DNA from: Corynebacterium pseudopelargi
GTDB lineage: Bacteria > Actinomycetota > Actinomycetes > Mycobacteriales > Mycobacteriaceae
Direction of reading: 5' to 3'
Assembly (NCBI RefSeq): GCF_003814005.1
Contig: NZ_CP033898.1
Span: 310,001-374,000 of the forward strand
DNA: 64,000 nucleotides
Below, piece after piece: positions 10,425 to 64,000 of the stretch (position 1 is its first letter; every line of letters starts with the position of its first letter). The notes beneath the pieces are model-generated. The model ran no database searches. It was not told where the DNA came from and was given only the letters and a program-made list of their open reading frames with translations. Both the position numbers and the translations under genes were made by a program.

Positions 10425-10991
10425 TTGAGCATCGACCACGCCCGCGCCGAAGCTGCCGTGCGCGAATTGCTACTGGCTGTTGGCGAGGACCCAGACCGCG
10501 AAGGGCTGCAAGAAACCCCGGCTCGCGTGGCGCGAGCGTATGCGGAGATGTTTGCCGGACTGCACGTTGATCCCACCGAAGTCTTGTCTAAGACCTTCTC
10601 GGAGGATCACCGTGAGCTGGTGCTGGTGCGCGATATTCCCATCTATTCCACCTGCGAGCACCACCTCGTGCCCTTCTATGGAGTAGCGCACATTGGCTAT
10701 ATCCCCGGCGAGAGCGGCAAGGTCACTGGCCTTTCCAAGCTCGCCCGCTTGGTTGATCTCTACGCCAAGCGCCCCCAGGTACAAGAGCGGCTCACCTCCC
10801 AGGTTGCCGATGCGCTGGTAGAAAAACTCCAGGCGCACTCGGTGATCGTGGTGATCGAATGTGAGCACCTGTGCATGGCCATGCGTGGCATTAGAAAGCC
10901 AGGCGCTACCACCACCACCTCGGCGGTGCGCGGAGGCTTCCAACGCAATGCAGCTTCGCGCGCTGAGGCGCTGAGCCTGATCAAGGGGTAG
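10425..10991 (+). CDS. folE: GTP cyclohydrolase I
   Basis: First enzyme of tetrahydrofolate synthesis, 188 residues, converting GTP to dihydroneopterin triphosphate. Zinc ligands fit Cys77 and His80 in STCEHH and Cys150 in ECEHLC. The frame begins at a TTG abutting the ftsH stop, with an AAAGGAG site inside the ftsH end; this gives the conserved N-terminus. It heads folE-folP-folB-folK, all closely spaced or overlapping, so the four folate enzymes are made from one mRNA. Confidence 0.95.
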
Positions 10992-10996
10992 AGGCT

Positions 10997-11815
10997 ATGC
11001 GTTCGCAGGTGATGGGCATTGTTAACGTCACCGAGGATTCCTTCTCCGATGGTGGCCGCTACCTTGAGCCCGAAAAGGCAGTAGCGCACGCCCGAGCGCT
11101 TGTTGCCCAAGGCGCAGACATTATTGATGTTGGCGGCGAATCCACCCGCCCGGGGGCAAGCCGAGTAGATCCAGACCTAGAGCTTCGCCGCGTGGTGCCT
11201 GTGATCCAGGCGCTAAGCCAAGAAGGCATTGTCACCTCGGTAGATACCATGCGCGCAAGCGTTGCCGCGGCCGCGGTAGAAGCCGGTGTGAGCATGATTA
11301 ATGACGTATCCGGCGGCTTGGCTGATCCACACATGTTGGAAGTCATGGCCGAGGCTGGCGTGCCGGTGTGCCTGATGCACTGGAATACCTCTCGTTTTGG
11401 CGATGCCGCAGGCGCTGCCGATCACGGTGGCGATGTGGTGCGCGATGTACACCAACGCTTAGATGAGCGCATCGAAGCGGCACTGGCTGCCGGTGTGCGC
11501 AATGAAGATATTGTGCTCGATCCTGGGCTGGGCTTTGCCAAAACAGCGCAGGATAACTGGGCACTATTGCATGCGCTGCCGAGCTTTGTGGCCCGCGAAC
11601 ACCGCATCTTATTAGGGGCTTCTCGCAAGCGTTTCCTTGCGGCTATCCCTCAAGCACGCGGTTTGGAGCAAAATGCCGATCCTGCAACGGCGGCGGTCAC
11701 AGCGATTGCCGCCCACCACGGGGTGTGGTGCGTGCGCGTGCACGATGTTGCAATTTCTCGCGATGCGGTGGATGTTGCTGCCTGCTGGAATACCCAAGGA
11801 GGTCTCGGTGGCTGA
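10997..11815 (+). CDS. folP: Dihydropteroate synthase
   Basis: Joins p-aminobenzoate to hydroxymethyl-dihydropterin diphosphate; target of sulfonamides. The 272-residue TIM barrel shows the two family signatures, MGIVNVTEDSFSDGG near residue 6 and DVGGESTRPGA near 40, and the late GASRKRF segment. It starts five bases after folE and its last eight bases overlap the GTG start of folB. Confidence 0.96.
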   Translation: MRSQVMGIVNVTEDSFSDGGRYLEPEKAVAHARALVAQGADIIDVGGESTRPGASRVDPDLELRRVVPVIQALSQEGIVTSVDTMRASVAAAAVEAGVSMINDVSGGLADPHMLEVMAEAGVPVCLMHWNTSRFGDAAGAADHGGDVVRDVHQRLDERIEAALAAGVRNEDIVLDPGLGFAKTAQDNWALLHALPSFVAREHRILLGASRKRFLAAIPQARGLEQNADPATAAVTAIAAHHGVWCVRVHDVAISRDAVDVAACWNTQGGLGG

Positions 11816-53284: not shown

Positions 53285-54808
53285 CTACTGCTTGCGATGG
53301 TGTCGCGGTGGTGTGTGTACGGGATGGTTGGTGGGCTGTTTTGGCACGCGCTTTGCAGGGCGCTTGGGCGCGATCACGGCAGTGGCGAGGCCTCGAGTGG
53401 CGCGGCCGGTGCGTCGAATAGCTGCATAGGCGTGGAATTTTTGGGGGCGGCGGATCTTGCGGGCCACCCACTCGCCAAAGACCACACCGGCAGCCAAACC
53501 GCAGGCAGTGGCCAATGCCACAGCCATGTTGCTAAAGCCGAGCAGGGTTTGATCATTCAACGCCGCATACATCGCCCGGTACATGGGCAAACCGGGCAGC
53601 ATCCACGCGATGCCCGAAAGGGCAGTAATTAGCGGCGGCACCAAGAAGCGGCGCGCCAGCAGGCCGCCGGCCAAACCGATGGCGGCGGCAGAAAGCGAAA
53701 GGCCAAACACCGGGCTAATACCTAAGGGCATGAGCACGAAGTAGAAGATCAAAGCGCCTGTGCCGCCGGTGAGCACCGAAACCACTGCCGAAGAAACCTC
53801 GGCAAAACAGGCCACGGCGAAAGCGCCCGCGGCCACGGCGGCGGCGATAACGCGCACGGTGAAGTCCACATAGCTGGTTTCTACAGCGGCCTCCAGCGGC
53901 GGCAGTGAAATGCCTACGACCTCTGCAAAGCGGATACCTGCGGCCACGCCGCCGATGATGGCGCCGGTGAGCAGGATTGTCTCGAAAAACCTCGCGCTCG
54001 CTGTCACAGGGGCGCCGGTGATGCCGTCTTGGATGGATTGCACCAGGGAAAGATTGGCCAACATCACCACGATCACACCGGCCACCACGTGGCTGGGGGT
54101 GAAGTCGATGCCCAGATAGGACGTCAGCGCGAACACCACCGCCGTAGGCGCGGTGGCCACGAAGCCGCCCATGGCGTTTTGGAAGAACACCGGCAGGCGC
54201 CTTTTGCCCAAAAGGATAGAGCCGGCTACCACCACAACCACCAGGAAGAAGCTCAGTGCTGCCGCCAAGAGGTTGCCGCCAAGCAGCACCGACACCGCAG
54301 CGCCGAGCGTGCCCCAGCCCAAAAGGGACGTGCCACGACCGTAGGAGGCTGGCCTTGAGGTGATGTCGCTGAGGATCTTTTCTGCCACATTGGGTGGGGT
54401 AGCGCCGGCCTGGATGGAGCGGATCAGGCGGTCTACCTCGATGAGCTTGGAAAAGTCCGTGGTCATGGTGCGCACCACGCGCAGCACCGTCACCGGCTGT
54501 TTGTGGGTGGTGCCGATGGTGCTAAAGACGGTGATGGTGTTAAAGGTGATATCTACGTGCGCCGAATACAGGCCGTAGGCCGAGGTCACCGCATGGATTT
54601 GCGCCTTGGTGTCGTGATTGGAGGTGCCGGAAGAAAGCAGAATTTCTCCCACGCGCGCCGCCAATTCCATCACCGCAGACACCTGCACCGGGTCGGTGAG
54701 GTCGATTGGCGCCAGTGGTGAAGGTGGTGGCGCGGCTTTGACGGCATCGATGGTGGCGATGCGTCCGCTTCGGTTGGACAGTGCCCGAAGCTTATTGGCA
54801 AAAGACAC
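53285..54808 (-). CDS. thrE: Threonine/serine exporter ThrE
   Basis: Inner-membrane exporter of 507 residues with a cytoplasmic N-terminal domain and about ten helices, of the ThrE family known from C. glutamicum. GTG 54808 follows AAAGGAG; the longer frame adds 15 residues. The C-terminal tail is basic. otsA-thrE synteny matches C. glutamicum. Confidence 0.92.
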   Translation of the reverse strand: MSFANKLRALSNRSGRIATIDAVKAAPPPSPLAPIDLTDPVQVSAVMELAARVGEILLSSGTSNHDTKAQIHAVTSAYGLYSAHVDITFNTITVFSTIGTTHKQPVTVLRVVRTMTTDFSKLIEVDRLIRSIQAGATPPNVAEKILSDITSRPASYGRGTSLLGWGTLGAAVSVLLGGNLLAAALSFFLVVVVVAGSILLGKRRLPVFFQNAMGGFVATAPTAVVFALTSYLGIDFTPSHVVAGVIVVMLANLSLVQSIQDGITGAPVTASARFFETILLTGAIIGGVAAGIRFAEVVGISLPPLEAAVETSYVDFTVRVIAAAVAAGAFAVACFAEVSSAVVSVLTGGTGALIFYFVLMPLGISPVFGLSLSAAAIGLAGGLLARRFLVPPLITALSGIAWMLPGLPMYRAMYAALNDQTLLGFSNMAVALATACGLAAGVVFGEWVARKIRRPQKFHAYAAIRRTGRATRGLATAVIAPKRPAKRVPKQPTNHPVHTPPRHHRKQ

Positions 54809-54935
54809 CTGCGCTGCTCCTTTCGCTTTTCGACGTCTCCCTGTGGCACACACCTTCGGCCTGGGTGACCCCTCGTGTTGTCAATTTATATGGTGTATCC
54901 GGTACTGTGTTGATTCGTGCCAAGCACTGGCACGT

Positions 54936-55008
54936 GCTGGAGTGGCGCAATCGGTAGCGCAACGGTCTTGTAAACCGTAGGTTGCGAGTTCAAGTCTCGT
55001 CTCCAGCT
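54936..55008 (+). tRNA. tRNA-Thr (anticodon TGT)
   Basis: A 73-base cloverleaf: acceptor stem GCTGGAG/CTCCAGC, anticodon stem ACGGT/ACCGT with loop CTTGTAA, anticodon TGT at 54969-54971, T-arm GCGAGTTCAAGTCTCGT. No CCA is encoded. Its 3' end is the likely attachment site of the element to its right. Confidence 0.95.
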
Positions 55009-55063
55009 CAAAAACACCAGGTCAAACACTATGAACACTGCCCGGATACTTGACCTCAACAGG

Positions 55064-55084
55064 AAAAGTGTCCAAAAAGTGTCC
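55064..55084 (+). repeat. Tandem AAAAGTGTCC repeats near attL
   Basis: AAAAGTGTCC occurs at 55064-55073 and 55075-55084, 11-base period, about 60 bases inside the tRNA end. Short, phased direct repeats at this distance resemble integrase arm-type sites; this is inference. Confidence 0.5.
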
Positions 55085-55229
55085 AAAAAATCACGTTGCA
55101 AACGCAACACCACGGCAACCATAGCTCACCACCGCATGGGGTGGCGAAACACCACCTCGCAAAACGGCAAGCCGAAAAAACGCGCCGATGAAAAAAGACC
55201 ACAGGGCGCTAAAACTTCCTCAGATACGC

Positions 55230-55251
55230 CGAAAACCCCGCCAAAGCGGGG
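55230..55251 (-). terminator. Terminator of the leftward satellite operon
   Basis: On the minus strand: CCCCGC, TTTG loop, GCGGGG, then TTTTC. It lies 111 bases after the last leftward gene. Confidence 0.88.
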
Positions 55252-55361
55252 CTATAAGGCCAAACCTCCAAACCCGTACAGAGTGCGCCCGGCAATGCCC
55301 CCCGCCGATGCCTTGCAGGAAATTCCGGGTGTTCCCCCACCCCCGGGGTGGCTTGTCGTGG

Positions 55362-55580
55362 CTAGTGGCTCGTGAATGGGTTTATGGTGTGGCCGCTGAG
55401 GTTGATGGTCACACCGTGGGGGCGTGCTTTATAGCCGTTGCGGCGTAGATGGTCGGGGGTGATGGGTTCGCCGTTGATGCCGACGCCACTATGTGGGGTT
55501 GTTGGTGGTTCGTGCTTGTTGTGGGCGGATAGGTCACGGAGCCAGGCGGTGAACTCCTTGGAGTTGCTAGGCGGTGTCAT
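55362..55580 (-). CDS. Small satellite cargo protein, unrecognised
   Basis: A 72-residue hydrophilic protein (starts MTPPSNSKEFTAWLRDLS). It overlaps the previous gene by 14 bases and is the last gene before the terminator. No motif recognised. Thr/Pro/His-rich composition matches its neighbours. Confidence 0.6.
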   Translation of the reverse strand: MTPPSNSKEFTAWLRDLSAHNKHEPPTTPHSGVGINGEPITPDHLRRNGYKARPHGVTINLSGHTINPFTSH

Positions 55581-56427
55581 TGTGGAACTCTTCGTGTGTG
55601 GTGAGCCAGTCGGGGTTGGTGGGGGTTCCGTCTAGGTTGTAGGTTGCGGTGTCTTTGTAGCGGGGGCTGATGGTGTACTTAGGGTTGAAGCGGGGTTTGG
55701 GTGTGGTGTATTTGCGGTCTTCGTCGTGCATGTTTTGTTCTACGTTTGCGAAGTAAGTGTTGAGCTTTTTGGTGATGTTTTCCAAGGTGTCAATTTCGTT
55801 GTTGTTGTTGGTGATCCACGCGATGGCACGCGTTGGCGCGTTTGGCGCGTGCGTTTTTCGTCCTCCTGAGAACAGTGCGTCGTGCAGGTTGATGAAGTGT
55901 GCTTCGTTGGAGGTTTTCCCCAAGATAATTTCCGCGAGTTTGGTGATGTTGGTGATGGTTTGTTGGTGTTGTGTGCGTTCTTTGTAGGCTTTGAGGCCTT
56001 TGGCGTCTGCGTGGGCAAGCACGGTGGCGGGGTCGGGGTCTCGGTCGCCGTATTGGGCTTCGAGTTGGTCGAGTGCTTGGTTGGCTTTTGCCCATGTTGG
56101 GCGGATGTCGTTAAGGATGTTGTTGAGGTTGTTGGGGTTGGATACCCATTGTTTGACGGCTGTGTGTAGGTAGTTGTCTTGGTTGGTGACGTAGTGTTCG
56201 AGGGCTTCGATGTGGTGGGCGCGTTGTTGCCAGGCGTGGGCGGCTTTGTTGAGGTTGTCGGGGGTTGCGGTGGTGTAGGGGTCGGGGGTGTTGTAGGCCT
56301 TGTTGAGTAGGGCGTGTGCGGTTTCGGCGGTGTTGAGTGCTTGGGTGAGTGGTTGGTAGGTGGTGGGTTTTACCCCGGCGGTGTTGAGTGCTTGGGTGAG
56401 TTTCTTTGCGTCTGCGGTGATGCCCAT
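55567..56427 (-). CDS. Helical satellite cargo protein with internal repeat, unrecognised
   Basis: The largest cargo gene, 286 residues, mostly helical and rich in Asn, Thr and Ala. The N-terminus carries the repeat LTQALNTA twice, 17 residues apart, encoded by a 26-base direct repeat (56325-56350 and 56376-56401). No signal peptide or membrane segment. The ATG 56427 has AAAAAGGACAC upstream. The size and helical character would fit a capsid- or scaffold-interacting protein, but no homology is seen, and this is a guess. Confidence 0.65.
   Translation of the reverse strand: MGITADAKKLTQALNTAGVKPTTYQPLTQALNTAETAHALLNKAYNTPDPYTTATPDNLNKAAHAWQQRAHHIEALEHYVTNQDNYLHTAVKQWVSNPNNLNNILNDIRPTWAKANQALDQLEAQYGDRDPDPATVLAHADAKGLKAYKERTQHQQTITNITKLAEIILGKTSNEAHFINLHDALFSGGRKTHAPNAPTRAIAWITNNNNEIDTLENITKKLNTYFANVEQNMHDEDRKYTTPKPRFNPKYTISPRYKDTATYNLDGTPTNPDWLTTHEEFHNDTA
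56325..56401. repeat. 26-base direct repeat inside the cargo gene
   Basis: CGGCGGTGTTGAGTGCTTGG plus six bases occurs twice, start to start 51 bases apart (17 codons), preserving the frame. It is a recent in-frame duplication. Confidence 0.85.
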
Positions 56428-56493
56428 GGTGTGTGTCCTTTTTGTTGGGGAGTGGTGTGCCCCCGGTGTTGGTTCCGGGGGCGGGGGTGTTGT

Positions 56494-56718
56494 TTACCAG
56501 TTGGTGGGGTAGGCGATTTCGTCTCGTGCTGCGAGGTGTGCGTTGTAGGCGGTGATGAGTTCGCGGTGCTTTTCGATGGGGAGGGTGGCGAACCAGTTGG
56601 CGACGGCTTCGGCGGCGTCATCGGGGGTGAGTGCTGCGAGTGCTTTGGTGATGGTGGTTTTGTCGATCGCGGTGGCGTTTTGGGTTTGTTCTTGTGGATC
56701 TTGGTTGGGTTGGTTCAT
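56494..56718 (-). CDS. Small satellite cargo protein, unrecognised
   Basis: A 74-residue acidic helical protein (MNQPNQDPQE... DEIAYPTNW). I start at ATG 56718, which has AGGAG seven bases before it and overlaps the upstream stop as ATGA, rather than at 56760. Function unknown. Confidence 0.65.
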   Translation of the reverse strand: MNQPNQDPQEQTQNATAIDKTTITKALAALTPDDAAEAVANWFATLPIEKHRELITAYNAHLAARDEIAYPTNW

Positions 56719-57086
56719 GGTTGTGCTCCTAGGTAGTCGAGGATGTGTGTTTTGTCCCATATGTATTCCCGGCCTTGTTTGGTGACGCCTATGTGTTTGG
56801 CGATGCGCCGTGCTTGTCGGGGTGATACGCCAAGCAGTTGGGCGGCTTCTTTTGTTGTGGTCGGGTCTGTAATGGGTTGGTTGTAGTGTGCCTGTTGTGG
56901 GGGTGTGGGGACGTCCGTGTGTCCTTTGGTGGCCATGTAAAGGTTGGAGAGTTCGGTTGTGATGCGTTGTTGGGTTGGGGTGATGGGGTGGCCGTTGCGC
57001 CGTAGGGCGTGGATGCCTGCGATGGCGAGGCGGTAGGCGGCGGGGGCGTCTTGGGTGGTGATGAGGATGCCGTGTTTGAGTTCCAT
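56715..57086 (-). CDS. Satellite protein with C-terminal HTH
   Basis: A 123-residue protein. Residues about 75-120 (TTKEAAQLLGVSPRQARRIA then a KQGREYIWDKTHILDYL wing) look like a MerR/excisionase-type helix-turn-helix that reads a binding-site orientation. ATG 57086 is preferred to the track of His-codon-rich upstream sequence. It may regulate the cargo genes or act at an attachment or packaging site. Confidence 0.7.
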   Translation of the reverse strand: MELKHGILITTQDAPAAYRLAIAGIHALRRNGHPITPTQQRITTELSNLYMATKGHTDVPTPPQQAHYNQPITDPTTTKEAAQLLGVSPRQARRIAKHIGVTKQGREYIWDKTHILDYLGAQP

Positions 57087-57091
57087 GGTGG

Positions 57092-57334
57092 TTAGCTTTC
57101 GAGGGTGTCCACGATGAGGTTGGTGAGGTTGTAGGCGTTGGCGGGTGTGAGTTCGAGGCGGGTGGTGGTGTCGCCGGTGATGGTGAGTGTGATGCGCCCG
57201 TGGTGTCCGTGGCGGGTGGCGCGGGCGGTGATGGTGGTGGTTGCCCATGGTTGGCGGGGCATCTTAAAGCGGGCTTTAATGGTTGTGTTGGTATTTGGTT
57301 GCGGGGGTGTGGAGGGGGTGGTGTTGTTGGTCAT
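57092..57334 (-). CDS. Small satellite protein, unrecognised
   Basis: An 80-residue Thr-rich basic protein (MTNNTTPSTPPQPN...), beta-rich in its middle. First gene after the iteron region; five bases before the HTH gene. GGAGCGCACACC lies upstream of the ATG. Function unknown. Confidence 0.6.
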   Translation of the reverse strand: MTNNTTPSTPPQPNTNTTIKARFKMPRQPWATTTITARATRHGHHGRITLTITGDTTTRLELTPANAYNLTNLIVDTLES

Positions 57335-57402
57335 GGTGTGCGCTCCTTGTCGGTGGTGCGTGTCGATTGTGGGTAAAAAAATCCTGTAGGAACTTCAAAA
57401 AG

Positions 57403-57475
57403 GTGTGTTACCGTGTTATCGCAGGTCAGGCTATGTTACTGGTGTGTTACTGGTGTGTTACGCCCTGTGTTACGC
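57403..57475. repeat. GTGTTAC iteron array, candidate replication origin
   Basis: Seven-base units GTGTTAC (with GTGTTAT and ATGTTAC variants) start at 57405, 57413, 57433, 57444, 57455 and 57467. The last four are 11, 11 and 12 bases apart, one per helical turn on the same face. The array lies directly after the SF3 helicase gene and touches its stop codon. In SaPIs the origin lies 3' of rep with similar iterons, so an origin is likely by analogy. Confidence 0.7.
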
Positions 57476-58960
57476 CGCTGTTTTTGGCAGGAATTCTGGC
57501 GCCCTAGCCCCTTGTTGCAAACGAATACCGCGAATAACGCGTGATCCGGTAGCTTTCACTTGGCCACGTTTCACACCCTCCAACGCCATCGCGTTCACCT
57601 CCACGCGGAACTTTGTCTTACTCAACTGTGAACGCCCAAAACCGTTTCGGGTGCACCAACGGGTGTAATCGTCGTATACGTCTGAATCATCGATGGAGTC
57701 CTCATCGTTGCCAGTCAGGGTGTAGGTTTCCTTGAAGAACGCCCGTAATGGCGACCCCAGTTCTTCCAAGTCCTCCAACACTTCTTGCTGTGTGTCGGGT
57801 GTGGTGAACCGCCCATTGTTGCGGTTCAGCCGGTCAAGACCCTCCAACGCCCAGTTGAAAATGCCCGGTAGCTCACGCTCCAACTTCCTCGGTAAGTCCT
57901 TATCGGGTGCACCTTGGAATGAGCGGGTGAGGTACACCGCCATGGCGCGGCGTTGCACAGCACTTGAAGCGTCAAGGAACTTTGGTACTTGGTTCGAAAT
58001 GATCGTGAAGCGGGTCGGTAGCTTGCCAGTCCACATAGGACGTCCCTTAATGTCCACGGATACCGCGCCCTCACCAGTGATGTTCTTCAACCGTTCCACC
58101 ACCACCTTGTTGTGTTCACCAGTGTCTGAGGCGTCACCGAAGATGGCCAACGGTTTGCCGCGTAGTTGGTCAAGGGTGAAGCGCCCACCAAAGTCAGCCA
58201 TCGACGGGTTGGCCACGTTCGCGGAACCACCCATCAGGGCTTCGAGGGTGCTAGCAATCACGCTTTTCCCGCCACCAGGCACACCGATGATGAGCAACAT
58301 TTTTTGCAGATCAAGCCGCCCGGAAATCAGGTAACCCGCCCACTCCTGCAACAGCAACGCCCCGGCCTTATCGTGCTCGAATACCTCACCTAGGAACTGT
58401 TCCCAACGCGTTGCTACGGCCTCAGGGTCATACTCAAACGGCAACGCCCAGGTGTTGAACCACTGAGGGGTGTGGGGGTGCAGTTCGCGGCGCCTATGGT
58501 CGAACAGGCCGTTGCGCATGGCAATCAACGCGGGCGCCGGTTGCTTACCACCACCAACCCACGTTGGGGCTTCTACACTCGCGGGGGTGAGCACACTCAA
58601 CCGGGTTGGTTCGAGCAGATCCGTAACTTTCGCCCGCGATGGTAACCACTGCTTGTGTTGCTCACCATCAGGGGTTTGCTTAACGTAGGTGACTTCGTTG
58701 AGGCGTTGCCAGATAGGCTTGCGTACCTCATCCTCATCAACTTCTTCCCAATGTGTGCCAACGTAGTGCCACCAGGCTTTTCGCCAATACTGCAAGGTTG
58801 GGTGGCCACCAGTAGAAAACAGTTCAGTCAGTAGCCGGTTTGACACTTCTGTGTGGCACCCCGGGGCGGGATAGGTGTCCCAACCATCGGGGGCTTCAAG
58901 CTCCCCAGCGGTCACGCGCTCCCACAAGGTGGGGGCAGGGGCTAAGTGATTGGCGCTCAT
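57470..58960 (-). CDS. SF3 replicative helicase (P4/D5-type)
   Basis: A 496-residue ATPase. The Walker A GVPGGGKS is at 226-233, the Walker B-type FGDAS at 274-278, sensor Asn in IISNQVP near 323, and the arginine-finger region SSAVQRRAM near 332-340. This is the D5/phage-plasmid primase C-terminal helicase family. A D5-N-like domain (about 150-215) precedes it and a winged C-terminal region follows. The start overlaps the primase stop (ATGA). Together they form a split primase-helicase, the satellite replicon. Confidence 0.88.
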   Translation of the reverse strand: MSANHLAPAPTLWERVTAGELEAPDGWDTYPAPGCHTEVSNRLLTELFSTGGHPTLQYWRKAWWHYVGTHWEEVDEDEVRKPIWQRLNEVTYVKQTPDGEQHKQWLPSRAKVTDLLEPTRLSVLTPASVEAPTWVGGGKQPAPALIAMRNGLFDHRRRELHPHTPQWFNTWALPFEYDPEAVATRWEQFLGEVFEHDKAGALLLQEWAGYLISGRLDLQKMLLIIGVPGGGKSVIASTLEALMGGSANVANPSMADFGGRFTLDQLRGKPLAIFGDASDTGEHNKVVVERLKNITGEGAVSVDIKGRPMWTGKLPTRFTIISNQVPKFLDASSAVQRRAMAVYLTRSFQGAPDKDLPRKLERELPGIFNWALEGLDRLNRNNGRFTTPDTQQEVLEDLEELGSPLRAFFKETYTLTGNDEDSIDDSDVYDDYTRWCTRNGFGRSQLSKTKFRVEVNAMALEGVKRGQVKATGSRVIRGIRLQQGARAPEFLPKTAA

Positions 58961-59724
58961 GCTGCCACCTCCCTTGCGGCTTTGATAGCGCTGTTGATTG
59001 TGGCCACCACCTCGGATTGGGCAAGGCCGTTGGATACCGCTGCCAGTTCGAGGTCTTGGAAACAGTCAATGTTTTTGCGTGCTGCCATAAACGCCGCCCG
59101 GTTCAGCGCGTTGTTTCGCCCACCCTTAGGTGCGGTCGCCACCATATCGATCAGATCATCGGCGCTATAACCCCGCCGATACTTAGGGGTGATCGTCGCC
59201 GGTGGTGGGTCAGCGCGAAACGTCGCCGGCCGCAACCACACGGGAACCTCAGGGATATCTTGCAACGGCATTAAGTTCACGAACTCGTATGTTCGCCCCG
59301 TGTCCGGGTGAACCGACGGGGGCATTACCAGGTAGCCGTTATGGGCTTTAATGTCCACCCCCGCCCCCAGGGTCTTATTCAGCCGTGCCCGATACGGCAA
59401 ACGATAGTAGTAGTGGTAGCCCCCGCCCCCAGTGGCCACGGTGATCGTAGGGGGTAGGGTGTGGCCGTCATTTACATCTTCCCAAGTGAAAAGGCCTCCG
59501 TTCCGTGGGTCGAGGTCGAATACCAGCACGTGCTCAGCGGGTCGAGCGCCAATGTTTGCATCGGGCATCTGCTGCCACCACCGGGCTATTGTGTTCATCT
59601 CCCGTGTTGCGGCTTTATGGCCACCACCGCCGCGGATAGCCGGTACTTTCCCGCGCAAGGGGAACACCTCAAACCCCAGGGCGGCGAGGTCAAGGGCGTG
59701 GTTCTGCATCGTAAGGGTAGGCAC
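58957..59724 (-). CDS. Prim-Pol (bifunctional DNA primase/polymerase)
   Basis: A 255-residue archaeo-eukaryotic-type Prim-Pol. The catalytic aspartates are in FDLDPRNGG (70-72 DLD) and the second motif is GGYHYYYR near 101-108. A C-terminal helical stretch follows. I start at GTG 59724, which has AAAAGGGGG and sits one base after the upstream stop; the longer frame lies in the zinc-ribbon gene. It primes DNA synthesis at the origin for the helicase. Confidence 0.87.
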   Translation of the reverse strand: MPTLTMQNHALDLAALGFEVFPLRGKVPAIRGGGGHKAATREMNTIARWWQQMPDANIGARPAEHVLVFDLDPRNGGLFTWEDVNDGHTLPPTITVATGGGGYHYYYRLPYRARLNKTLGAGVDIKAHNGYLVMPPSVHPDTGRTYEFVNLMPLQDIPEVPVWLRPATFRADPPPATITPKYRRGYSADDLIDMVATAPKGGRNNALNRAAFMAARKNIDCFQDLELAAVSNGLAQSEVVATINSAIKAAREVAA

Positions 59725-59725
59725 G

Positions 59726-59980
59726 TTACGCGCCCCCTTTTGGTGCAGTGGGGATGAACACGCTACGCAACAGCTCATAGCGCTTTCCATTAATCAAAAA
59801 CGTTGGTTGTGCGCTGTTCACTTCACCCTCAAGATGCTCAAGGCTTGTTTGGCACGTGGGGCACACGTAGCCTGCTACGCGCCCACGGACATAGCGCTCA
59901 CACCAACCACTGAAAGCGTTGCTACGCCTTAGGCGGCGTTTGCACCGTTCGCAACGAATCGTTTTCTTGCCGTGTGTCAT
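59726..59980 (-). CDS. Small zinc-ribbon protein
   Basis: An 84-residue basic protein with CERCKR (C-x2-C) and CPTC (C-x2-C) about 30 residues apart, typical of a zinc ribbon, with a third cysteine in WCERY. ATG 59980 follows AAGGAG. It precedes the primase by one base and may be a DNA-binding accessory factor. Confidence 0.7.
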   Translation of the reverse strand: MTHGKKTIRCERCKRRLRRSNAFSGWCERYVRGRVAGYVCPTCQTSLEHLEGEVNSAQPTFLINGKRYELLRSVFIPTAPKGGA

Positions 59981-60094
59981 TGTGAAAGTGTTCTCCTTAT
60001 CACTGCTTGCGGGTTGGAGGGGTCGAGCGCCTAGCCCGGGCGTTGCACCAACGGGCGGGGGCTAACAACCAAGTGGTTGTTTCCACCTAGGCCA

Positions 60095-60127
60095 ACAAGG
60101 GGTACTCATTCAGCGAGTGCCCCTTGT
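60095..60127. terminator. 13-bp hairpin between satellite genes
   Basis: ACAAGGGGTACTC / GAGTGCCCCTTGT with one G-T pair and a seven-base loop. It lies in the 188-base gap before the zinc-ribbon gene. Only the plus strand has a T-rich tail (TTTCG), so on the operon strand it is an attenuator or processing site rather than a clear terminator. A second inverted repeat (TCGTCAC/GTGACGA) is at 60129-60156. Confidence 0.5.
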
Positions 60128-60168
60128 TTCGTCACGACAAAAGTCATGAGTGACGAAATGGGGAATGG

Positions 60169-60828
60169 TTAAGGGTGGGAGGCTTTGTGTTCTTGGCTCT
60201 CACGGCCTGATACGGCTACACCTTTTGGTTGAGTAGTGGTGTTTTCTTGCTGCTCAGCGCCCATTAAGGCGGTTTCTGCCTTGTTGGCCAAACCACGGGC
60301 ATCAATGATGCTTTGGTTGGTGGCACGCCTGTACGCATGACGCTCAAGGAACACCCCAACCTCCAACAGCACATCCACCAGGCCGGCGCGCCGATGCCTA
60401 GTTAGGCCGGCAAGGGTGGTGAACAATCGGTCGCGGGCGTGTTCAAGGTTGTCAATGAGTCGCTCAAACTCGGTATCCAACGCCGCTTGCCGTTCCTCGG
60501 CTTCACGCTGCTCCCGTTCGAGCCGTTTGGCTTCACGTACCTCAGCACAATGCGCAACATCCGCTGCAATGCACTCAGGGCAAATCACCACGTTTTCGCC
60601 GCCACCAGCTTTCATGGCGCGCCGAAGTTCCTCCCGGTCGATCAACATAATGCGGGTGTGCTTCGTCCCGGCTTGCATTGCGTGTCCCGTAGCTGCAACC
60701 GCCCACATTCCTTTTGGTGCATCGCGCCATGGGGCGGCAAGGTGCAACACGCCAGGGGTGGTAGAATCAGTAGGTGCGTTATTGTTCACGGCAGTATCCG
60801 CGCCGTGATGGTGGGTGAATGTTTTCAT
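60169..60828 (-). CDS. Satellite protein with C-x2-C and coiled coil
   Basis: A 219-residue protein. A His-rich start is followed by a short globular part ending in ICPECI (C-x2-C), then a charged coiled coil of about 60 residues and a helical end. ATG 60828 overlaps the end of an upstream small ORF as ATGA. Not recognised; a DNA- or primase-associated factor is possible. Confidence 0.65.
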   Translation of the reverse strand: MKTFTHHHGADTAVNNNAPTDSTTPGVLHLAAPWRDAPKGMWAVAATGHAMQAGTKHTRIMLIDREELRRAMKAGGGENVVICPECIAADVAHCAEVREAKRLEREQREAEERQAALDTEFERLIDNLEHARDRLFTTLAGLTRHRRAGLVDVLLEVGVFLERHAYRRATNQSIIDARGLANKAETALMGAEQQENTTTQPKGVAVSGRESQEHKASHP

Positions 60829-61049
60829 GATGGAAAGCCCAATCCTTTCTTGACAATGATGAGGTGAATGATGGCGCGAAGTAGCGGGGGTATTGGCTCG
60901 TGTCGTGCCATACAACCCCAACAGCGGTAGGCGCTCATCTCCCTGCGAACCCAGGTGCCTACCGCTGTTGCTGTGCTTAGAGCACACAGGCGGGGCACTA
61001 GGTGGGGAATTAGTGGTGTGGGGGAGGGGCTGTTAGGCGGCCTCGCCAT
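60825..61049 (-). CDS. Possible small protein coupled to its neighbours
   Basis: A 74-codon frame that starts inside the end of the upstream gene (17-base overlap) and ends overlapping the next start as ATGA. It contains a CWGC pair and a hydrophobic end (LLRAIIHLIIVKKG). No clear ribosome site. The overlaps on both sides argue for a real gene; the composition argues only weakly. Confidence 0.4.
   Translation of the reverse strand: MARPPNSPSPTPLIPHLVPRLCALSTATAVGTWVRREMSAYRCWGCMARHEPIPPLLRAIIHLIIVKKGLGFPS
60919..60970. repeat. 14-bp inverted repeat within the satellite operon
   Basis: CAACAGCGGTAGGC at 60919-60932 and its perfect complement at 60957-60970, 24-base loop; followed by a TGTGCT-TAG-AGCACA hairpin (60971-60985). 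It lies inside the possible small ORF, so it could be an RNA structure or operator. Confidence 0.55.
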
Positions 61050-61410
61050 CGGCGATGCCAGTAGCCGCGGGGGTGGCCACGTTGGGAGTGTTCGCCGGGG
61101 TCTGCAATTGGTTGTGCATGATCGAAAGCGACAAGGAAATTTCGTTAATTTTGTCGCTCAGTTCCTCGAACACCAAAAGGGTGGCGGCTTGGTTCAGCGC
61201 CCGGATGAGTTCACCCCGGATACCGGCTTCGTCAATACACTCAAGGATCCACAAGGGCAGTTCCGCCACAAGAGCGGCGCCGGTGAGCTTGGAGTGTGCA
61301 ATTCGGTCAAGGTTCGCCGCATCATCGGCGCACGCGTCAAGCTGTAACTTGTCTGCAAGGCCGGTCAGGGCGTTGGTGGTGTTGTTGCGAAGTGGGGTAG
61401 TCTTACCCAT
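61033..61410 (-). CDS. Helical satellite protein, unrecognised
   Basis: A 125-residue protein, MGKTTPLRNNTTNALTGLAD..., largely helical with a probable coiled coil (about 75-105). ATG 61410 has GAGAGGAG seven bases upstream, so the much longer frame (to 61854) is not used. A structured 190-base leader precedes it. Function unknown. Confidence 0.7.
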   Translation of the reverse strand: MGKTTPLRNNTTNALTGLADKLQLDACADDAANLDRIAHSKLTGAALVAELPLWILECIDEAGIRGELIRALNQAATLLVFEELSDKINEISLSLSIMHNQLQTPANTPNVATPAATGIADGEAA

Positions 61411-61446
61411 GTCGAAACTCCTCTCGCGAGTTTTGGCCGTGCCTCC

Positions 61447-61531
61447 GGTAGTTGCCGCTACGCGGGGGCGTTGGTCGGTCATGAAAGACCGTGTTGTGTT
61501 CCCCTCCTCGTAGTTGCCGCTACGTGGGGGG
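61447..61531. repeat. Duplicated stem-loop in the leader of the 125-residue gene
   Basis: GTAGTTGCCGCTACG occurs twice (61448-61462 and 61510-61524), each a CGTAG-loop-CTACG stem with the same loop sequence and C-rich/G-rich flanks (GGAGG on the mRNA). It is 62 bases start to start. Conserved loop plus stem argues for RNA recognition. Confidence 0.6.
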
Positions 61532-61573
61532 TTTTCTTGTTGGTGGTCACCACTGTTGTGGTGATGCTTCAAA

Positions 61574-61598
61574 CATACCATAAAACTTTCATGGTATG
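61574..61598. promoter_or_regulatory. Inverted repeat CATACCAT-N9-ATGGTATG
   Basis: Perfect 8-base arms, in the gap between the 67-residue HTH-like gene and the structured leader. On the operon strand TTTG follows, so it may be a weak terminator or an operator for an internal promoter. Confidence 0.5.
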
Positions 61599-61604
61599 GA
61601 ACTT

Positions 61605-61808
61605 TTAGGCCTGACCTCGTGCAATCCTGCTTACCATGGACTCGTGCAAGTCGGTTGCTTCCGCAATCTCCCGGTTCTTGATCGCAGTGCGAGACGCCGC
61701 AAGAAACGCCTCCTGCCGCGCTTTCCGCAACGCCTGCACGCCCTCCACGTACTCCCGATGCGCAGCAACAGCAGCGTCCAACAGTTCCTGCTTCTCTTGA
61801 TCGTCCAT
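61605..61808 (-). CDS. Small HTH-like protein
   Basis: A 67-residue protein, helical throughout. NREIAEATDLHESMVSRIARG at the C-terminus has the spacing of a helix-turn-helix. ATG 61808 lies nine bases after AGGA that overlaps the upstream stop; a GTG at 61814 is too close. Possibly a satellite regulator. Confidence 0.65.
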   Translation of the reverse strand: MDDQEKQELLDAAVAAHREYVEGVQALRKARQEAFLAASRTAIKNREIAEATDLHESMVSRIARGQA

Positions 61809-61819
61809 AATCACCCATC

Positions 61820-62101
61820 CTAAGCGCCGCCCTCATCCTCAAACGCGGGAACACTCACAGGATCACCCAAATGAGCATCCTCCACACCTAGGCAGGAAAC
61901 AGGCCGGCGAAAAGGTGTAACCCGTACAAAATTGTTCAGCTCGTCAAGCCAATCCAATGCTTCTTCACGCGAGAACTGCAACACCATCGGGCGGGCGTGA
62001 TCGGGTTGGTGCAGCACCAGGTACAGGCACCCATCGGCCGTGAACTGATCGACCACGTGGGGTGCATGAGGGGTGATCCTCGTGGGGGTTGCGGTACTCA
62101 C
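61820..62101 (-). CDS. Small satellite protein, unrecognised
   Basis: A 93-residue protein with a mixed alpha/beta start (QFTADGCLYLVLHQPDHA) and an acidic end. ATGA overlap with the AlpA-like gene makes it the second gene of the leftward operon. Function unknown. Confidence 0.65.
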   Translation of the reverse strand: MSTATPTRITPHAPHVVDQFTADGCLYLVLHQPDHARPMVLQFSREEALDWLDELNNFVRVTPFRRPVSCLGVEDAHLGDPVSVPAFEDEGGA

Positions 62102-62313
62102 GCCGCCACCCCCAGTTGCTCATCATCGTCACCATCATCCGGCAACGCATCAATGCCAAGGAACTCCAATAGTGGCTTGGTGGGTACGACGTACCGCCCC
62201 CCAATCTTGGCCGCCGGAACGGGGAAATCTCCCTCACGAATCTGTCGATACGCCATCGCCGGGCTAATCCCTAGCAATGACGCGGCTACGGCGCCCGTAA
62301 CTGTCGTTTTCAC
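62098..62313 (-). CDS. AlpA/excisionase-like HTH protein
   Basis: A 71-residue protein with the helix-turn-helix of AlpA/Xis type (VAASLLGISPAMAYRQIREG then FPVPAAKIGGRYVVPTKPLL, the HTH_17 pattern). First gene of the leftward operon, GTG start with AGGAG nine bases before it. In PICIs such proteins control the operon or aid excision. It is divergent from the repressor. Confidence 0.82.
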   Translation of the reverse strand: MKTTVTGAVAASLLGISPAMAYRQIREGDFPVPAAKIGGRYVVPTKPLLEFLGIDALPDDGDDDEQLGVAA

Positions 62314-62361
62314 AACTCACGCTCCTATCAAAGCGTTAGGAATAAATCACTTACTGCCTGA

Positions 62362-62390
62362 AATATAACGCACTGTTAGAAAACCGTCAA
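62362..62390 (-). promoter_or_regulatory. Main leftward promoter of the satellite
   Basis: On the minus strand TTGACG, 17 bases, TATATT: near-consensus sigma-70-type boxes, about 50 bases before the AlpA-like start codon. Confidence 0.85.
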
Positions 62391-62413
62391 TAGTTGCAAA
62401 CATCTAAACAGTG
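62371..62413. promoter_or_regulatory. Operator pair in the satellite switch
   Basis: CACTGTTAGA (62371-62380) and TCTAAACAGTG (62403-62413) are inverted copies with one extra base. The left one lies within the spacer of the leftward promoter, the right one before the repressor gene, so one regulator could control both sides. Confidence 0.65.
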
Positions 62414-62466
62414 AGCGAAAATAGAGCAACATTAAACAACTGGCAAAAAGCACTACCATTCAAACC

Positions 62467-63003
62467 ATGGATAAATGGCAAAAAGACCTCACAGACACCA
62501 TCGGTGCAGAGGTGAAACGACTCAGAGAAAAAGAATCCCGATCAACAATGTGGCTCCAAGATGAAACCGAACGCCTAGGTTTTCGGGTATCCCGCTCAAG
62601 CATCAGCCAATTAGAGGCAGGCAACCGAACATCCATCAGCCTTGCCGAAGTGCTTGTACTAGCCGCCGCTCTCGACATTCCCCCGGCTTTGCTCATCTTT
62701 CCCTACTACCCAGACGGTGAAACCCATTATCTACCAGGGAAAATAGACAGCGCGTTCAATGCCGTGGAATGGGTAGCTGGCCAACGAACCCTTGAAAGCG
62801 ATGACATTGGTGTGTTCCCAGAGCCTCGCGTCATGCTCGCAACCGAACGCGATGACCTACTTTCCGACGCCCTCCGAAAAATAAAAACCGACCCCGGTAA
62901 CCCTATGGGGCATGTCAAGGCCATGAATGCCCGCGCTAAGGAAATAGCCACAGAACTCAAGAAGCTCACCCCCTACGTCGGAACCTCAGAGGATGAACAA
63001 TGA
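62467..63003 (+). CDS. XRE-family repressor (master regulator candidate)
   Basis: A 178-residue protein with N-terminal HTH (about 10-75; SRSSISQLEAGNRTSIS is the recognition part) and a C-terminal helical domain without a Ser/Lys autocleavage pair that I can see. It lies where PICIs have Stl. It is coupled to the integrase by an ATGA overlap. Derepression by a helper phage protein rather than by RecA cleavage would fit, but is inference. Confidence 0.8.
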   Translation: MDKWQKDLTDTIGAEVKRLREKESRSTMWLQDETERLGFRVSRSSISQLEAGNRTSISLAEVLVLAAALDIPPALLIFPYYPDGETHYLPGKIDSAFNAVEWVAGQRTLESDDIGVFPEPRVMLATERDDLLSDALRKIKTDPGNPMGHVKAMNARAKEIATELKKLTPYVGTSEDEQ

Positions 63004-64000
63004 GCAGGGGTAGACCCGCCACACCCCTCGGCACCATCGGCAAAATCAACATCACCAAAAAACCCAACGGCAAAGACCAAGCAGAAGCACGCTACCGAAC
63101 CACCACCGGCAAAACCCTCAGAGTCCGCGCCCAAGGCACCAGCAAAACCGCCGCCGAACGCAACCTCAAAACAAAATGCCGCGACAAAGACGCCACCACA
63201 AACACCACCCAAGGACTCAACAACACCACCGAACTCCACACCCTCATCACCTACTGGCTCGAACGCCACGACGTCACCAACACCACCAAAAACACCTACA
63301 ACAAAGCCATCCGACTCCACATCAAACCCCACCTTCGGCAACATCCGACTCAACGAACTCACCACACCCCAGATCCAAACATTCCTCGACACCCTCACCC
63401 CCGGAACCGCCAAAACAAGCCGCGCCGTACTCTCAGGCGCACTCGGCCAAGCCACCAGATGGGGGCTCATCACCTACAACCCCATCACCAACACCACCCT
63501 CCCCAAACGCGAAAAACAAGAAGTCGAAGCACTCACAGACGAACAAATACACGAATTTAGAACCACCATCCGCGATTGGTGTGGCATCAACCACCGTGGC
63601 CAACAGCGCGGCGACGGACTCCCAGAAATCATCGACGTACTCATTGGCACAGGCCTACGCCTCGGCGAATGCCTAGCCCTCCGCTGGCAAGACATAGACC
63701 TCACAGCAGGCACCATCACCATCACTGGCACCATCGACAAAAACACCAGCCAACGCGTCGAACGCACCAAAACTCTCAGCAGTAGGCGCACCATCCACGC
63801 CGCCCCAATCGCCCTCAACGCCCTCAAGAAACAACAGGCAAAAGAACTCCGCCAATACCTCGGTGAAATCGTATTCCCCAGCACGCGGGGCACGTGGCGC
63901 ACCGTAGACAACGTGAACCGGCAACTACGAACCGCCCGTCCCGATCACCTCGCATGGATACACCCCCACAGTTTCCGCAAAACCGTGGCCACCAGGATTG
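63000..64000 (+). pseudogene. int: Tyrosine integrase, frameshifted and cut by the window end
   Basis: Residues 1-110 (arm-binding and start of core-binding domain) read in the frame of the ATG at 63000. At CCCC (63327-63330) one base is extra; from 63331 the frame +1 continues with core-binding and catalytic domain: Arg in TGLRLGE, Lys in RTKTLSSRR, His-x-x-Arg in HPHSFRK. The Tyr lies beyond the window. Without the extra base the protein is continuous (about 330 residues so far). It may be a true mutation or a homopolymer error. Confidence 0.85.

Follow-up and report, generated by a model that had tools for sequence, protein, structure and literature searches.

The distal part of a 64,000-nucleotide stretch of the Corynebacterium pseudopelargi genome (contig NZ_CP033898.1, positions 310,001 to 374,000 of the forward strand; hereafter, the window, whose numbering is used throughout) is occupied by an integrative element of 10.05 kb, which is probably a phage satellite of the phage-inducible chromosomal island (PICI) type and, within a Corynebacterium family defined by its helicase, a variant devoid of a capsid gene. 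In its best reading, the element would be akin to the candidate PICIs of mycobacteria, i.e., a satellite of a known kind, with an unknown protein in the slot that follows the helicase and a doubled, inverted origin of replication.

The boundaries of the element were established by direct comparison. ARAGORN recognized an intact tRNA-Thr gene (anticodon TGT), as claimed in an earlier note made from the sequence alone; an exact 38-bp copy of its 3' end, the right attachment site (attR) that the note had expected beyond 64,000, is found at 65,027-65,064, past the end of the window. Since this repeat marks the far end, the element extends from about 54,973 to 65,064 and measures 10,054 bp core to core. 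In a sister genome (G007), whose flanks are about 90% identical, the left flank, including the tRNA-Thr gene, abuts the right flank with an overlap of exactly the 38-bp core; this locus is the empty site, with the tRNA-Thr there, and the element is a site-specific insertion into tRNA-Thr. Between 64,000 and attR only the end of the integrase gene (int) was identified, followed by largely non-coding DNA without further open reading frames (ORFs) of at least 90 amino acids (aa), apart from one that begins within the final 70 bp and extends across attR. These features rule out a full prophage that continues beyond 64,000.

The gene order inside the element is that of PICIs. The plus strand carries an XRE-type repressor and a tyrosine integrase, the latter at the end opposite to the tRNA, which corrects the earlier note, and the repressor is divergent from an AlpA-like gene. 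On the minus strand, proceeding from the tRNA, a 72-aa ORF, an orphan protein of 286 aa, a 74-aa ORF, a helix-turn-helix (HTH) protein of the HTH_17 family, an 80-aa ORF, a superfamily 3 (SF3) helicase, a Prim-Pol, a zinc-ribbon-like protein, four ORFs of 219, 125, 67 and 93 aa, and the AlpA-like gene are found. The succession of int, repressor/AlpA-like gene, Prim-Pol, SF3 helicase, iterons and cargo, already recognized in the note, was confirmed, for its genes by profile searches with the AlpA family itself below its cut-off, and agrees with the definition of PICIs in the accessible text of PMC6092414. Pfam and PHROG scans of the element ORFs revealed no convincing capsid, portal, terminase, tail or lysis family (two weak matches, reported in Table 1, were disregarded), nor a terS or packaging redirector, a role that one of the small HTH proteins might have; no Tra/FtsK-like or relaxase family emerged from the Pfam scans. 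The lack of virion genes asserted in the note is borne out by these results as far as recognizable families go, and so is a lack of recognizable plasmid-like conjugation genes.

The same backbone recurs in other members of the genus. Relatives of the helicase, at an E-value of 1e-20 or better, are present in 16 of 201 Corynebacterium genomes, that of the window included, and correspond to 16 loci besides the window; Candidatus Corynebacterium gallistercoris, C. pacaense, C. lactis, C. tuberculostearicum, C. lowii and C. sputi are named among the matches. A tRNA or tmRNA gene lies at 15 of the 16 sibling loci, and in all 15 its 3' end is repeated at the opposite end of the element, over 25-51 bp in 11 of them and over 14-19 bp, a weak repeat, in L030, L031, L034 and L038; the 11 well-bounded sibling elements are 7.4-11.5 kb long. 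The target is again tRNA-Thr (TGT) in L023, L027 and L029, and the same core lies near the contig end in L025. The note had anticipated both the host genus and a family whose cargo varies, and several members indeed occupy the same tRNA. L023 reproduces the capsid-less layout of the window in a second species: its helicase is 64% identical and its orphan 26% identical to those of the window, and its integrase is a single 377-aa ORF that shares 65% and 74% identity with the two pieces into which the window integrase is divided, so that an intact relative of this enzyme exists.

A predicted iteron origin adjoins rep in the window element. The iterons reported in the earlier note are real, since they pair with a second, inverted array about 0.3 kb before attR, outside the window, which the note had missed. 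A blind test for pairs of inverted 7-mer arrays was positive in three of 16 elements (the window element, L027 and L028) and in none of 20 shuffles of each; the split arrangement is also visible in L023 when the signature is looked for, although this element did not pass the blind test. In six other elements (L024, L026, L029, L031, L032 and L035) two outward-facing modules stand 87-121 bp apart directly after the helicase. As judged by eye, the letters of the iterons vary between elements and agree within one element. A stricter form of the origin signature was detected at 20 sites in 13 of 16 bounded elements (the window element and 15 siblings; 145,633 bases), with none in L036, L037 and L038, against none in 54 kb of window chromosome, one in 159,496 bases of flanks and a mean of 0.37 (maximum 2) in 30 shuffles, a count to be taken as support and not as an independent test. 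The exact GGAACA form of the pattern gave five matches in five of 242 genomes, four of them inside known elements, and its reversed control gave none. The fifth match (L196, G118:C13, about 168,392) lies 1.3 kb from a tRNA-Ser gene in a genome that is 53% complete; no element protein matched within 3 kb, and the site is perhaps a remnant. Two matches in viral contigs, also with no match to element proteins, look like chance occurrences and were discarded. Similar sites, with TGACCTGC and paired repeats, come after related helicases in L047, L048 and L097 (Dactylosporangium and an IMG/VR contig), and this type of origin may extend beyond Corynebacterium.

The region after the helicase differs among the siblings. 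A major capsid gene is found there in eight of the 16 loci (L024, L026, L027, L028, L032, L033, L034 and L037), a relative of cement proteins in six and one of protease/scaffold proteins in four; capsid, cement and protease/scaffold relatives occur together in L024, L032, L033 and L034. The ORF caller was rough, and the capsid module of L024, which it missed, was recovered by tblastn. No terminase, portal or tail family appeared among the 25 most-hit of 92 PHROG families in a pooled scan of 136 ORFs. Most of these were taken from a set of 179 after removal of the int, Prim-Pol and helicase ORFs and of some that encode repressors or AlpA, and two shorter ORFs between 64,000 and attR were included. 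The capsid protein of L034 matches 84 phage records, all at less than 60% identity (35 Gordonia, 22 Mycobacterium, 19 Arthrobacter, 7 Corynebacterium and 1 Mycolicibacterium), and that of L027 none. In L025 (G018:C16) the helicase is followed by type I restriction-modification genes, with HsdM and HsdS identified by profile and HsdR by eye. As a capsid gene is present in half of the siblings, morphogenesis is a plausible job for this slot, which proves nothing for the orphan of the window.

This orphan, 286 aa in the window and 333 aa in its relative, was found in two of 242 Corynebacterium genomes and as three proteins in a large database, its own genome and sequence being counted in both cases; no relative was detected in IMG/VR, and no Pfam, PHROG, PADLOC or NCBIfam family scored above cut-off. 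An AlphaFold2 model, built on three sequences, is all-helical and of moderate confidence (mean predicted local distance difference test score 71.3, predicted template modeling score 0.62). The possibility of an undetected HK97 capsid protein was rejected on the basis of this predicted secondary structure, which is unlike that of HK97. Fold comparison was uninformative; capsid switchers were not among the 50 matches listed, an absence that excludes nothing. Most sibling capsid genes are preceded by HTH proteins of about 110-240 aa, and the 123-aa HTH protein of the window matches, over most of its length, those of L023 (BLASTP 3.8e-19) and of the capsid-bearing L028 (1.9e-6); weaker matches to L037 (3.4e-4), L032 (0.008) and the AlpA-like protein of the window itself (2.1e-4) may reflect the HTH alone. 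With modest weight, we infer from this kinship a relationship of the window element and L023 with the capsid-bearing branch, the orphan standing where the capsid gene stands in L028.

Table 1. Features of the C. pseudopelargi element in the window, in order of position.
Feature	Position	Strand	Basis
tRNA-Thr (TGT), intact; integration target, 3' end forming the attachment core	54936..55009	+	ARAGORN; Rfam RF00005, 72 bits
attL core, 38-bp direct repeat; partner attR outside the window	54973..55010	+	repeat match; empty site in G007
Putative integrase arm-type sites, AAAAGTGTCCA repeated; more copies at ~64,855-64,898	55064..55089	+	role inferred
Small ORF, 72 aa	55362..55580	-	nothing matched in Pfam, PHROG or PADLOC
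Orphan cargo protein, 286 aa, predicted all-helical, after helicase	55567..56427	-	no family above cut-off; AlphaFold2 model
Small ORF, 74 aa	56494..56718	-	two weak matches, disregarded: PHROG tail assembly chaperone (0.0032); Pfam MgtE_N (0.013)
HTH_17 protein, 123 aa	56715..57086	-	PF12728, 2.2e-6; BLASTP kin in L023 and L028
Small ORF, 80 aa; kin directly after helicase in two siblings	57092..57334	-	tblastn to L032 and L033
Iteron array, origin signature TGACCTGC plus paired GTAACAC-type repeats; inverted second copy at ~64,685-64,752	57406..57473	-	
SF3 (D5/P4-type) replicative helicase, 496 aa	57470..58960	-	D5_N, 4.5e-13; DUF5906, 4e-14
Prim-Pol, 277 aa, ORF separate from helicase	58957..59790	-	PF09250, 1.2e-32
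Zinc-ribbon-like protein, 84 aa; kin in L023 and L024	59726..59980	-	weak Pfam DZR (0.0013); tblastn
Early-region protein, 219 aa	60169..60828	-	no family at <=0.001; weak PHROG head maturation protease (0.032), disregarded
Early-region protein, 125 aa	61033..61410	-	ORF list, Pfam and PHROG scans
Small HTH-like protein, 67 aa	61605..61808	-	weak: Pfam DNA-binding, below cut-off; PHROG transcriptional repressor (0.00048)
Early-region protein, 93 aa	61820..62101	-	ORF list, Pfam and PHROG scans
AlpA/excisionase-like HTH_17 protein, 71 aa, divergent from repressor	62098..62313	-	PF12728, 5.9e-8; PF05930 (AlpA), 0.0016, under its cut-off
XRE-type repressor, 178 aa	62467..63003	+	PF13560, 2.2e-6; PF01381, 2.6e-6
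Tyrosine integrase, frame change near 63,330; C-terminal part to ~64,131 outside the window	63000..64000	+	PF14659 and PF00589, pieces searched apart

The AAAAGTGTCCA repeats, present at both ends of the element, fit arm-type integrase sites. Between these sites and attR lies a 37-nt direct repeat, with copies 84% alike (L002:10906-10942 and 10979-11015, within 64,906-65,015 in window numbering), which possibly represents excisionase sites. Genes for ThrE-family exporters (PF06738) are found on both flanks of the attachment site (window 53285-54853 and L002:11062-12525). Among the siblings, the L027 integrase (L027:13677-14817) seems split over different frames too, and another copy (41 bp) of the 3' end of tRNA-Leu, located at L032:2451-2491 within a tRNA of uncertain type, 2.7 kb from tRNA-Leu, perhaps indicates a second element in tandem.

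Some observations weigh against a mobile satellite whose orphan acts on capsids. The window integrase is split over two frames, another feature overlooked in the earlier note, and this break suggests that the window copy may not be mobile now, unless it is an assembly error. Some of the elements in which the origin signature was counted had also served to define it, so that the count is partly circular, and a looser form of the signature gave six scattered matches elsewhere in the elements and one in 54 kb of chromosome. Finally, clear HTH kinship is restricted to L028 and to the capsid-less L023; because of this, our expectation that the orphan redirects capsids, low from the start, was slightly reduced, as was that of a family with an interchangeable morphogenesis slot, and that of a defense cargo slightly increased. 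This latter explanation, which we consider quite possible while falling short of an even chance, retains the satellite backbone and regards the orphan and its neighbors as defense or host-fitness genes, active against phages or in phage interference and unrelated to capsids. Indeed, restriction-modification genes fill the corresponding region of L025, and satellites are called hotspots of antiviral systems in a title of the reference list of PMC10023795; however, PADLOC assigns to the orphan and its neighbors nothing beyond a weak generic HTH match, and the adjoining HTH protein resembles the one beside the L028 capsid gene.

Two other explanations dispense with a functional satellite. An integrative plasmid of non-phage nature, either similar to the actinomycete integrative and conjugative elements (AICEs) or a Prim-Pol replicon similar to pRN1, which would replicate once excised and be transmitted in some other way, is unlikely. 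A Prim-Pol and an SF3 helicase with the origin directly downstream are also plasmid-like, the minimal replicon of pRN1 includes 166 bp of downstream sequence (PMC4234260), and relatives of the helicase were found in 187 plasmid records, Streptomyces accounting for 122; against this stand the lack of conjugation families mentioned above and the capsid proteins in half of the sibling loci, which are of no obvious use to a plasmid. Decay from a prophage or a capsid-bearing satellite, with loss of mobility, would account for the frame break and for the missing capsid gene, and is quite improbable, since the other assigned genes are open frames, the attachment repeats are exact, both origin modules are present and L023 preserves the same capsid-less layout with an intact integrase and a diverged orphan.

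The satellite interpretation, which we favor, finds partial parallels in several known systems. P4-type satellites have a helicase domain of the same family, the window protein being labeled 'phage/plasmid primase, P4 family' in NCBIfam (TIGR01613), and P4 possesses two separate iteron sites, ori and crr, which resemble the two arrays of the window element. The window element differs from P4 in its separate Prim-Pol, in place of the fused alpha primase, in its PICI-like order and in the lack of P4-specific families (sid/psu) among the matches. AICEs and conjugative elements are characterized by FtsK-like Tra proteins or relaxases, of which the Pfam scans of the window element gave no example. 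PICIs of the type of the Staphylococcus aureus pathogenicity islands share with the window element a strand that carries int and the repressor, xis, pri, rep, ori and cargo in divergent orientation, a specific attachment site and the lack of recognized virion genes (PMC6092414); differently from these, the window element is actinobacterial, its Prim-Pol and SF3 helicase are two genes, no terS was recognized, and a second origin module lies near attR. The candidate PICIs of Mycobacterium, including phiRv1 and phiRv2, are integrated islands with the same order, some of them in tRNA genes, and are defined in the accessible part of PMC10654092 by an integrase and a major capsid protein, the latter encoded also by half of the siblings; the window element has no capsid match. 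Capsid-forming PICIs have in common with the siblings L024, L032, L033 and L034 the capsid, cement and protease/scaffold relatives. They also encode portal, connectors and terminase (PMC10690885), none of which was among the matches listed, and the window element is without even a major capsid protein.

Satellites have been proposed before in Actinobacteria. Small actinobacterial prophages were considered as such (PMC10023795), and satellites of Streptomyces are of another kind, predicted PICIs of Actinomycetota being mentioned in the same source (PMC10690885). Of the interpretation advanced in the earlier note, the layout, attR, the lack of recognized virion and conjugation genes, the host and the varied-cargo family stand, and its suggestion that the cargo redirects a helper phage is tentative. 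The idea of a satellite family in Actinobacteria had already appeared in print (PMC10654092 and PMC10690885). No description of the Corynebacterium family was found in a literature search with most subscription journals outside its reach.

According to the mechanism that we propose for the satellite, a helper phage would lift repression, Int and the AlpA-like protein would cut out the circle, the helicase would load at the iterons and the Prim-Pol would prime copying, with the virion supplied by the helper. Such a helper is presumed, and searches of phage DNA yielded no name for it. The orphan may then redirect the assembly of the helper capsid, as a size switcher or scaffold and not by forming a capsid itself; this tentative role, which we consider less likely than not, would be analogous to that of the capsid switchers Rcm, CpmB and Sid (PMC12409344). 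The orphan resembles them in its predicted multi-helical nature and in its location, in a region that is occupied by morphogenesis genes in siblings, and shows neither sequence nor demonstrated fold similarity to them, so that the analogy is purely functional. Still more speculative is the view that the whole family possesses one interchangeable morphogenesis slot, where some members would encode a major capsid protein of their own, with neither portal nor terminase, and others a helical orphan reshaping the capsid of the helper, each with a TGACCWG-iteron origin, compact or in two inverted modules, whose iteron letters would change together within an element and be read by its own helicase.

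In the accessible text of the literature cited here, satellites of Actinomycetota are mostly predicted and not tested. The C. pseudopelargi element offers a bounded insertion with an empty-site control, relatives with swapped cargo on one backbone, a searchable origin signature and one candidate gene for capsid redirection, and it raises the question of whether a satellite can trade the strategy of bringing its own capsid for that of remodeling the capsid of its helper through the swap of a single slot.

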